Shown here: one piece after another, positions 19,235 through 57,220 of the stretch
Numbering within the stretch: the stretch's first letter is position 1
Layout: each line of letters opens with the position of its first letter
Assembly (NCBI GenBank): GCA_035628995.1
Contig: DASPIR010000024.1
Coordinates: forward strand, 1 to 64,000
Reading direction: 5' to 3'
Length of the DNA: 64,000 nucleotides
From: Clostridia bacterium
Lineage (GTDB): Bacteria > Bacillota > Clostridia > Lutisporales > Lutisporaceae
Notes under the pieces: generated by a model
Database searches by the model: none
Seen by the model: the letters and a program-made list of their open reading frames with translations, nothing else
What the model was told of the DNA's origin: nothing
Program-made: the position numbers and the translations under genes

Positions 19235-19586
19235 ATATTGTAGTAATCGTTGATGGAGAGAGTAAATTGTGAAAGGCTTAAAGAGAGGTGCTGCCACAGG
19301 CTGAGAGCGCACCAGCAATGTAGCAATTGAAGTTCACTCCGGAGATTCAAGGCTGAACATGGTACCTCGTAAAGCATTTTATTTCTAGGGCGAGCGAGGC
19401 ACCAAACAGATGTAGTGCATTTTTAACACTTGAAATACGGGAAATCTGTGGTGTTAAAAAGCACTGGTAGGCTTTGACGGCTGATACCGTTATATTTTTA
19501 AGCGGTTTGCAGTTATGCAAACAAGCAGGGTGGTACCGCGGATAACCTTCGTCCCTTTTTTGGGAATGAAGGTTTTAATTTTTGCC
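19235..19586 (+). ncRNA. T-box riboswitch of pheST
   Basis: The leader shows an AGAGAGTAA stem I start near 19256 and the T-box antiterminator sequence CAGGGTGGTACCGCGG at 19526-19541. A terminator hairpin follows (AACCTTCGTCCC with GGGAATGAAGGTT, 19544-19574, then a T-run). The regulated genes are phenylalanyl-tRNA synthetase, so the specifier should be a Phe codon; TTC occurs at 19333-19335 (and 19346-19348) but I could not fold stem I fully. Uncharged tRNA-Phe would stabilise the antiterminator. Confidence 0.92.
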
Positions 19587-47878: not shown

Positions 47879-48020
47879 GTGCAAACTCCTACGCGGAGTT
47901 TGTGAGATTTAAACCCAAGAGAGACAATATTTATATAACCGGCACATGTCAGGTCTCGGATACCGGAAGCAGTATATGAATATAATGGCAAGGCTCTGCG
48001 GGGCACCATACATCAGATAA
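47879..48020 (+). repeat. Class II cassette-end module, copy 2
   Basis: AAACTCC and GGAGTTT form a stem around TACGC, followed by the conserved GAGATTTAAACCC and GGATACCGGAAGCAGTATA segments shared with 43717 and 50812. It ends in the left core box AGATAA, broken by the IS at 48020. Confidence 0.7.
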
Positions 48021-49570
48021 ACCAGCTAATCACAGTCAAGTGATTTAGTAAAATAAATTTATCCTAGTAAAAGTTGCAATAGCAAAGCTAGCCTATTCAA
48101 GAATAGGCCTTGAACTAATAACATCAGTCTATGCTACTCGGCTTTAAACTCGGTTTGAGTACTTAGCATTCCGAAAATAATCCTTAGAAGCTTGTTGCAG
48201 GTGGCAACCAGTGCAACTTTAGGAGGCTTCCCTACATTTACTTTATTGGTATAATATTCATAAAGCACAGAGTTACATGGTCCCTTTGGCCGCTTTCTAA
48301 CAGCGGCTGAGGCAGCCTGAAATAAAGCCTTCCTTAAGTAGGGAGTACCCCTTTTGGATATCTTGGTATTCTTCGCTCTGAAGTTACCAGACTGATAAAC
48401 AGAAGGATCTAGTCCTGCATAAGCAACTAATTGCTTAGCAGTTTCAAAGTTACTAATGTCACCAATCTCTCCAAGAATGGTGGCTGCTGTTACTTCTCCT
48501 ACCCCTGGGATGGATAGTAGGAGCTGGAAGTCAGGAGAGAGCTTAGCCCATTCATTGATTTGAGCCCGTATATCAATCAGGATTTCTTTGTGGGTCAGCA
48601 ATGACTTTATATAGCTTTGCAGAACCCGGATATTGGACTGTTGGGCACCATCATAGGATAAGCTTTCTCTTGCAGCAGCAATAAGCATGTCCACCTTTTG
48701 GTTACACCAATCATTGGAGTGTCTAGATAGTTTAATTAGGTTAAATAGCTCTTCACGTTTGGCAGAAAGAACAGCCGCAGGTGAAGGGAAAGAGGAGATA
48801 ACTCTTAGTGATGTCGGATTGCATAAATGATCAAACACAGTATCGTATTTAGGAAACACGAGGGTGAGCAAGCTTCTGAACTTTAACTGGGTTTCAGTAT
48901 TCAATGCATTAAATCCATCCCACTGTCTGCAAAGGCTTCGAAGTTCTTGCACATCATGCTTTTGTTCCTTGAAGGGCATTAAGTCGTTAGTATAGTAGAC
49001 CTGTGCAATACGGAAAGTATCAATAGGGTCAGTCTTAATCTTACGAATTGACTTACGCTTCTGCAAACTTGTTTGTAGAGGATTCAGCACATAGACAGAA
49101 TAACCAAGGTTCACAAAATACTGTGTGACAGGTTTGTAGAAGTTTCCTGTTGCCTCTAAGACAACATCAGGTATACTGCTAGTACTGTTTTGAAGATCCT
49201 TAAGACAGCAAAGAGCAGATTTCATTCCCTCGGGAGTATGGGAGAAATCAAAAGGTTTTGTATAAGGTTTGTTGTAAGAGAGAAAGCCGGTAGCAAAGCT
49301 GGATGATTTAGATACATCAATACACAAAGCAGGATTGTTCATATAATACCTCCTTACTTTCTGGGTCTCCTCATCTGACGACCCTCAACAGGTTCGTACG
49401 GTGATGCGTGCTATAAGCACAACCAGCTCAATCGAGGTATGAGTGTCAGCAAGGTTAAAACAGTTTATGCGACGGGATCAAAGTCCCAACAAAGCCCACG
49501 TTTTTCACCCAGATTATATACTTTAAGCATACAAGAAAATGAAAAATGTTCATACCCAGATAAGCTGGTT
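48020..49570 (-). mobile_element. IS110-family (IS1111-like) insertion sequence in an attC site
   Basis: Subterminal inverted repeats AACCAGCTAAT (48020-48030) and ATAAGCTGGTT (49560-49570) match in 10 of 11. The transposase reads leftward. Noncoding ends are about 105 bp (left) and 218 bp (right). Exact right end is uncertain (49570-49582). IS1111-attC elements are known to target integron attC sites, which agrees with the location. Confidence 0.8.
48134..49342 (-). CDS. IS110-family transposase (DEDD recombinase)
   Basis: 402 residues. The N-terminal RuvC-like DEDD domain shows D9 (CIDVS), E63 (VLEATGNF) and D105/D108 (KIKTDPIDTFRIAQ). The C-terminal Tnp20 domain has SIPGVGEVTAATILGEIGD and YQSGNF, whose Ser (about 318) is the likely second catalytic nucleophile, then KRGTPYLRKALFQAA. 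The frame is full length, so the element may be active. IS110 enzymes use a bridge RNA from a noncoding end. Confidence 0.93.
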   Translation of the reverse strand: MNNPALCIDVSKSSSFATGFLSYNKPYTKPFDFSHTPEGMKSALCCLKDLQNSTSSIPDVVLEATGNFYKPVTQYFVNLGYSVYVLNPLQTSLQKRKSIRKIKTDPIDTFRIAQVYYTNDLMPFKEQKHDVQELRSLCRQWDGFNALNTETQLKFRSLLTLVFPKYDTVFDHLCNPTSLRVISSFPSPAAVLSAKREELFNLIKLSRHSNDWCNQKVDMLIAAARESLSYDGAQQSNIRVLQSYIKSLLTHKEILIDIRAQINEWAKLSPDFQLLLSIPGVGEVTAATILGEIGDISNFETAKQLVAYAGLDPSVYQSGNFRAKNTKISKRGTPYLRKALFQAASAAVRKRPKGPCNSVLYEYYTNKVNVGKPPKVALVATCNKLLRIIFGMLSTQTEFKAE

Positions 49571-49789
49571 ATGAACCTAGTATACGAACAATGCCCTCAC
49601 GCTGCGGCACGGCAGGTTGAAGCAAGGAGCAAGCGTGCCTTGGGTTGCCGGATGTAATTGCTTTGAAGAGGGAGCAGGGCAACCACACACACTTCACCGG
49701 GAGTGCAACTCCGCCGAGAGGACAGGCTCTAGGGTCCGGTTCAGGGACGTCGTGAGTGCGGAACCGTTAGGTGAAATGTGGTGTGGGTG

Positions 49790-50687: not shown

Positions 50688-50811
50688 TACGACTATTTCA
50701 TATTATATAGATAGTAAAAGTATAATTTGGTGCGCTAGTATTGAGCGGGATAAAGGGAGAAAAGCAAACAGAGAAAGTATATTGATAAAGTGTTGTTCTG
50801 CAAGGTACAAA

Positions 50812-50950
50812 CTCCTATGCGGAGTTTGGTAGAGATTTAAACCCGAAAGGGACAATACTTACAGAAGCGATTCAAGTAAGGTTCCGGATACCGTCAGCGG
50901 TATATTAAGATACTTAAGCAAGTCGTTGGGGACATCACCCATCAGATAAC
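50812..50950 (+). repeat. Class II cassette-end module, copy 3
   Basis: ACAAACTCC and GGAGTTTGG pair around TATGC, followed by GAGATTTAAACCCG and GGATACCGTCAGCGGTATA as in 43717 and 47879. It sits before site 9. The 120 bp between the gene and this module show nothing else. Confidence 0.7.
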
Positions 50951-56568: not shown

Positions 56569-56619
56569 GGCGCCGCGTCCATGTGGCTCTGCCGTTGGAG
56601 CCCGCCACACATCGCAGAA
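56569..56619 (+). repeat. End of cassette 14: class I hairpin and broken attC left box
   Basis: GGCGCCGCGTCCATGTGGCT is followed by CCCGCCACACATCGCAGAA, which complements the cassette 14 start (55807 onward) in 15 of 19. The box stops at the point where IS110-like sequence begins, the same position as in site 7. Confidence 0.75.
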
Positions 56620-57106
56620 ATCAGCTAATCGCAGTCAAGAGGTTAAGGAAAATGAATTTTCCCAGGATAAGCTTTCTCTTGCAGCAGCGATAAGCATGTC
56701 CACCTTTTGGTTACACTAATCATTGGAGTGTTTAGATAGTTTAATTAAGCTAAAGAGCTCTTCACGTTTGGCAGAAAGAACAGCCTCAGGTGAAGGGAAC
56801 GAAGAAATCACCCTTAGGGATGTTGGATTGCACAAGTGATCAAACACAGTATCGTATCTTGGAAATATCAGGGTGAATAGGCTTCTGAACTTCAATTGGG
56901 TTTCAGTATGCAATGTGTTAAATCCATCCCACTGTCTGCAAAGGCTCCGTAGTTCTTGCACATCATGCTTCTGCTCCTTGAAGGGTTTTAAATCATTAGT
57001 GTAATAGACCTGTGCAATACGGTAAGTATCAATGGGGTCAGACTTAATCTTACGGATTGATTTGCGCTTCTGCATACTGGTTTGGAGAGGGTTAAGCACA
57101 TATACA
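56620..57106 (-). pseudogene. Remnant of an IS110-family element (truncated transposase)
   Basis: The left end (ATCAGCTAATCGCAGTCAAG) matches 48020-48040. Then a deletion joins to sequence matching 48657-49090 of the intact copy at roughly 90%. The surviving frame (56716-57099) contains IRKIKSDPIDTYRIAQVYYT but lacks both the first catalytic Asp and the C-terminal domain, with a stop after HSND. The right end and the rest of the attC are missing. Confidence 0.88.
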
Positions 57107-57220
57107 CTCTTTCTTAAAACAGCATAATTAACTATTGAATAAAACTAGTATAATTCTTATTTGGACTAATAATCTTATTTAGTATTATCTACTAGTAGAA
57201 TCCTAGGAAATAGATATTAG
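57107..57220 (+). repeat. Second copy of the cassette 3 leader
   Basis: This stretch matches 43051-43170 (CTTTCTTAAAACAGCAT, AACTATTGAATAAAAC, ACTAATAATCTTATTTAG, AGATATTAG) with scattered changes. It abuts the IS remnant, marking a rearrangement that brought cassette sequence outside the recognisable array. Confidence 0.8.

Follow-up and report, generated by a model that had tools for sequence, protein, structure and literature searches.

The window, a 64,000-nucleotide (nt) stretch of a Clostridia bacterium genome (family Lutisporaceae; contig DASPIR010000024.1, positions 1 to 64,000), carries between about 41.5 and 57 kb a gene-cassette array of plus-strand genes with attC sites between them. 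attC is the integron recombination site that ends each gene cassette. Within this array lies a complete IS110-family insertion sequence (IS) of 1568 bp, including one copy of an AA core, whose boundaries agree with those of a second full copy found in another genome (G006, locus L004). The first-pass annotation had proposed an intact IS110-family element in an attC core box, a proposal borne out by the complete element and by an exact empty site, with the ends corrected to 48021-49588. The sequence makes it very probable that this is an intact IS110 transposon whose own left end encodes the bridge RNA that guides it into attC, and that its attC specificity arose through a change of guide, independently of the IS1111-attC elements.

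The transposase has the domain organization of the IS110 family of bridge-RNA recombinases, with a DEDD RuvC-like N-terminus, a Transposase_20 C-terminus and the G--P----SG motif. It scores above the cut-off for the NCBIfam model 'IS110 family RNA-guided transposase' and is related in sequence to IS621 and ISCro4, both of which have solved structures. The non-coding stretch upstream of the gene measures 246 nt and the downstream one about 100 nt. As the first-pass annotation had noted, a subterminal repeat (AACCAGCT) starts at 48020, in the final bases of the left box AGATAA. This repeat recurs in inverted form (AGCTGGTT) at 49563-49570; a third copy coincides with a predicted donor guide (49421-49428). 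Near the two ends lies an imperfect inverted repeat (ACCAGCT-TATC / ACCAGCT-AATC, 10/11), offset from the core by 16 and 0 bp.

The junctions read CATCAGAT-AA, IS, TACG-AA-CAATGCCC, with the 2-bp AA core common to both flanks and the right flank opening AA-CAATGCCCTCACG. When the left and right flanks (ACCATACATCAGATAA and CAATGCCCTCACGCTGCG) are joined, they reproduce an uninterrupted attC (ACCATACATCAGATAACAATGCCCTCACGCTGCG) in G008, a genome of a different genus of the same family (L142:6912), indicating that the IS splits the R'' box after GATAA and before C. Flank comparison and empty site both show insertion without target duplication beyond the 2-bp shared core. A reading in which TACGAAC at the right is the original R'' box and the IS merely lies beside the attC is ruled out by the exact empty site in G008.

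The target is a genuine attC site, with an R''/L''...L'/R' structure and R''-R' complementarity. A stem-and-box scan yields 13 candidate attC sites on the plus strand of the window, compared with 0-2 in shuffles. In integrons, the R'' box of a cassette's attC is expected to complement the R' box that opens that cassette. Across 63 neighbouring pairs taken from eight arrays in four genomes, R'' and the preceding R' match at 3.95 of 5 variable positions, against a null mean of 2.90 that none of 5000 shuffles raised to the observed value. A count of the motif GTCGTGAGTGC-N-GTTA gives 29 instances for the window's genome and 0 for the reversed control; among the 23 genomes searched, the motif is limited to this family. 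Because this cassette rule and the array-linked integrases of sister genomes establish attC identity independently of the IS, the first-pass claim that the site is an attC holds on more than the presence of the element. The cassette interrupted by the intact window copy is an exception to the rule: the preceding R' (GTTATACGGA) predicts CGTATAAC, and the actual box is CAGATAAC. The 3' region of this cassette is similar to that of the cassette ending at 50948; these 3' non-coding regions (47880-48018 and 50800-50948), each with a short hairpin AAACTCC..GGAGTTT, end different cassettes, which suggests an earlier exchange of cassette ends.

We found four copies of the element: two in the window (the second truncated), one in G006 (Clostridiales bacterium GWB2_37_7, another genus) and a fragment in a congener, G004. 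The G006 copy is full, with a transposase 73% identical in protein; the G004 copy, an internal fragment, has the right half of an attC after it. The G006 transposase gene (L004:1501-2706) has one in-frame TAA and is probably inactive. All four copies lie within attC arrays in the same orientation, three with exact junctions; copies outside attC arrays, which would have contradicted the attC specificity put forward earlier, numbered 0/4. Moreover, among 78 loci of IS110 relatives, both attC halves occur near the element in this lineage only, with a single isolated half-motif in three others. Since cassettes are mobile and the known copies few, one could suppose a single ancient insertion spread by cassettes, so that the attC association would reflect hitch-hiking and not target choice. 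We regard this as the least probable of the alternatives, as the copies interrupt distinct R'' boxes (CAGATAA, CGGATAA and CGCAGAA) beside different cassettes. In addition, the box cut in G006 (CGGATAA) complements the R' of the cassette before it (GTTATCCG), so that the IS arrived after the cassette, and the truncated window copy likewise follows an R' box (GTTCTGTG). A contig search with a single protein gave no matches and one with a two-row alignment recovered the G006 genome only; a viral contig search returned distant IS110s only, and a class-wide search of 391 genomes no further close relative.

Target choice by a guide RNA is suggested by the upstream non-coding region. We scanned it, without prior placement of guides, for a segment matching the target's left side in sense, combined with one matching its right side in antisense. 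The best pair in the window element (GGGCTTTGTT / CGTCGCATAA) matches at 16/20 positions, equalled by 1 of 1000 shuffled regions, and that in the G006 element (GTGCATTGTT / CGCCGGATAA) at 18/20 (0 of 1000), the scan choosing the identical offset in both. Random TT sites equal the guide scores in 6/1000 cases for the window and 0/1000 for G006, and the downstream region, scanned likewise, gives at best 12/20. The arrangement, left-sense then right-antisense in the longer, upstream non-coding region, is that of the IS110 group with a left-end RNA. In the target loop, the window and G006 RNAs differ mainly in the guides, and several differences track the target: a G/T difference in the left guide follows it, and in the right guide the G of G006 fits the G006 box, the C of the window RNA fitting the box of the window's truncated copy and not that of the intact copy. 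The G006 guide pattern, allowing up to 3 mismatches, has 20 matches in G006, most of them in attC, versus 0 for the reversed control. The joined IS ends are matched by a second pair of segments, AGCTGGTT and TACGAA, as expected of donor guides. When pairing of the guides is barred, the window RNA takes up a two-loop fold, with a small hairpin at the apex of each loop. The predicted circle junction (AGCTGGT-TT-CGTATACT) yields TTGACT-N17-TATACT in both full copies, and junction promoters have been reported for the ISEc11 and ISEc21 circles (PMC11187229).

Table 1 Features of the IS110-family element and its attC target in the window.
Feature	Position	Strand	Remarks
IS110-family insertion sequence	48021..49588	-	flank join equals uninterrupted G008 attC; ends as in G006/L004; left core copy at 48019-48020
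Transposase, 402 aa, DEDD_Tnp_IS110 and Transposase_20	48134..49342	-	D9, E63, D105/D108 and G--P----SG motif (S318) all present
Left part of split attC R'' box (CAGATAA)	48014..48020	+	core AA at 48019-48020
Remainder of attC: core AA, CAATGCCCTCACG (L''), L' CGTGAGTGC, to R' GTTAGGTG	49587..49773	+	
Predicted bridge RNA of the left end (about 131 nt; target loop precedes donor loop)	49382..49512	-	ends estimated
Predicted left target guide GGGCTTTGTT	49488..49497	-	target GGGCATTGTT, 9/10; covariation
Predicted right target guide CGTCGCATAA	49465..49474	-	target CATCAGATAA, 7/10
Predicted left donor guide AGCTGGTTG	49420..49428	-	donor AGCTGGT-TT, 8/9
Predicted right donor guide CCGTACGAA	49393..49401	-	donor end GTATACG-AA, 6/9
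-35-like TTGACT, right end	48034..48039	-	promoter only once the ends join in a circle
-10-like TATACT, left end	49579..49584	-	other half of circle-junction promoter
Second, truncated IS copy (transposase residues ~72-233)	56620..57108	-	at another R'' box, CATCGCAG-AA, 56610-56619

The closest relatives outside the lineage are bacillal plasmid IS110s with 36-39% protein identity (Cytobacillus, Peribacillus and Niallia; L198, L204-L211). They have the same RNA scaffold and nearly the same donor (AGCTGGT-TT-CGTAT) but different target guides and non-attC targets, such as GCACCCG-TT-AGTT; in Cytobacillus, the guides are swapped on the conserved scaffold. The left target guides of these elements fit their own targets (for example AAGCATCAG, ACGCACCCG and ACGGGTGC). 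Across ten related elements, not fully independent of one another and compared as hand-copied strings, own guide-target pairings total 77 against a null mean of 47.7, with 1 of 20000 shuffles as good. Since the elements compared have the scaffold in common but not the guides, the best interpretation of attC targeting is retargeting through a change of guide. Specificity might instead reside in the transposase or in the folded single-stranded attC hairpin, given that attC folds strongly and that the relatives, too, insert in an inverted-repeat target; we consider this very unlikely, because guide and target covary across the ten elements and because the two-part match has the anatomy experimentally tested in IS621 and ISEc21 (PMC11208160, PMC11187229). 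The inverted-repeat target of the bacillal relatives (L204-L211 flanks) is itself repeated, of the type AACTAA-CGGGTGC-TTAGTT, and the lineage may have a general preference for hairpin-forming repeats.

RNA guidance is established for both IS110 and IS1111 elements (PMC11208160, PMC11187229), and attC targeting is known from the IS1111-attC elements ISKpn4, ISPst6 and ISPa25 (Tetu & Holmes 2008, Post & Hall 2009), whose RNA lies downstream (PMC11187229). The window element resembles this group in its insertion at one end of an integron attC, in its DEDD transposase and in RNA guidance (by a seekRNA there, predicted here). Together with the 10/11 inverted repeat near both ends, the shared target class could point to a diverged IS1111-attC member brought to Clostridia with the attC arrays. 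This origin is highly improbable, slightly more so than hairpin- or transposase-borne specificity, since the longer non-coding region of the window element is upstream and its guide segments are in IS110 order, reversed relative to that group. IS1111 elements, by comparison, have transposases of 330-350 aa, not 402 aa, and subterminal repeats of 11-13 bp extended by 7 (or 6) and 3 bp (PMC11187229), in place of the 16 and 0 bp seen here; the host of the window element is a member of the Bacillota. A tree further places the transposase with a bacillal IS110, from Cytobacillus, and with the long-branched ISSep2 (99/99), apart from IS4321 and IS5075, which represent the IS1111 family in that tree. 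The idea of a clostridial branch of attC-specific IS110 elements thus stands, with upstream-RNA IS110s as its relatives in place of the IS1111-attC group, and because of this relationship the attC habit appears convergent with that of the latter.

Among the IS110 elements with a left-end bridge RNA, IS621 (PMC11208160; 8wt6 and others) shares with the window element the family, the position of the RNA, the order of target loop before donor loop, a 2-bp core and a related transposase sequence. It differs in that the window element targets attC, has an AA/TT core instead of CT and encodes a transposase of 402 aa instead of 328 aa. ISEc21, also of the IS110 family (PMC11187229), is similar in its upstream non-coding region, guide order and circle with junction promoter, whereas its target is the DDE region of IS3-family transposases. 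A literature search for IS110 together with attC gave the bridge RNA paper as the sole relevant match; subscription papers were outside its scope and priority is unprovable.

In the mechanism we propose, the bridge RNA encoded in the left end would guide the transposase. The target loop of this RNA would pair on each side of the R'' box, with R'' itself and with the beginning of L'', and the donor loop would pair with the IS ends once these are joined. The transposase would then recombine the circular element into attC at the shared AA/TT core, in one orientation and with no duplication beyond the core. The attC specificity would go back to a target-guide change in an IS110 lineage of the Bacillota, an origin separate from that of the proteobacterial IS1111-attC elements. 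The ends, core, empty site, orientation, guide matches with their covariation, and junction promoter are legible in the DNA; we infer that the RNA is made, bound by the transposase and directs transposition. Several observations weigh against this mechanism. The known copies are limited to two full ones and two fragments, and the donor guides, considered by themselves, match weakly (shuffles do as well in 44 and 34 of 1000 cases). The window guides have 4 mismatches in 20 to their own site and would pair better with some other attC sites, and only 5 of 12 sites in the window's genome within 3 mismatches of the guide pattern are attC, although the top two both are. Finally, unconstrained free-energy folds have no clear two-loop shape, and the constrained G006 fold is less clear than that of the window. 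If the mechanism is correct, integron attC has become the target of RNA-guided transposons twice, independently and in separate branches, here via a few guide-base changes, providing a natural case of guide retargeting to set against engineered bridge RNAs, with the bacillal relatives of the same scaffold and donor as comparison.

On the right side of the insertion, the complete L''-L'-R' is retained and an R''-like TACGAAC is gained, while the computed fold of the interrupted site loses the outer R''/R' pairing. The interrupted site may still be usable, although this is a guess. A bolder extension, which we think unlikely, is that the IS end (...TACGAA), by rebuilding an R''-like box, makes the IS tolerated, so that the integron could carry it within a cassette, as a cassette-riding transposon. 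Two undisturbed attC sites, at window 55629 and L133:5667, have R'' boxes of the CGAAC type (ATACGAAC and ACACGAAC) that violate the R''/R' rule and are similar to the IS terminus ATACGAAC; they are possibly scars of IS loss or of cassette-riding events.

At least 29 attC motifs are spread over several contigs of the window's genome (window 41.5-57 kb; L133, L134 and L135). In G003, G005, G008 and G012, the four genomes for which enough sequence is available, attC arrays are preceded, on the same strand and at about 1-4 kb, by a tyrosine recombinase of about 360 aa (L092:11429-12520 in G003:C121; also G005:C212, G008:C9, G012:C171, G006:C35, G010:C349 and G013:C9). This recombinase scores as NF040815 (XerA-like / integron integrase). 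It does not reach the cut-off for IntI and leaves the middle of the IntI model unmatched (about positions 180-234, the expected place of the IntI-specific patch); it has the appearance of an integrase belonging to a clostridial lineage of integrons. A search of the window's own genome gave no clear copy, the best match being 42% identical (C16) and part of an IS91-like pair, in which an IS91/IS801-like transposase adjoins a tyrosine recombinase related to integron integrases (L091:8588-10604, G000:C16). One complete integron has been reported in Firmicutes, in Limnochorda pilosa (PMC9024848), and the clostridial host context of the attC arrays is unusual; the element, if read correctly, would give integrons an additional marker in Clostridia, a class from which hardly any had been reported. 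Elsewhere in the window, an ordinary T-box leader (Rfam RF00230) lies at 19241-19559, upstream of a phenylalanyl-tRNA synthetase-like gene pair.
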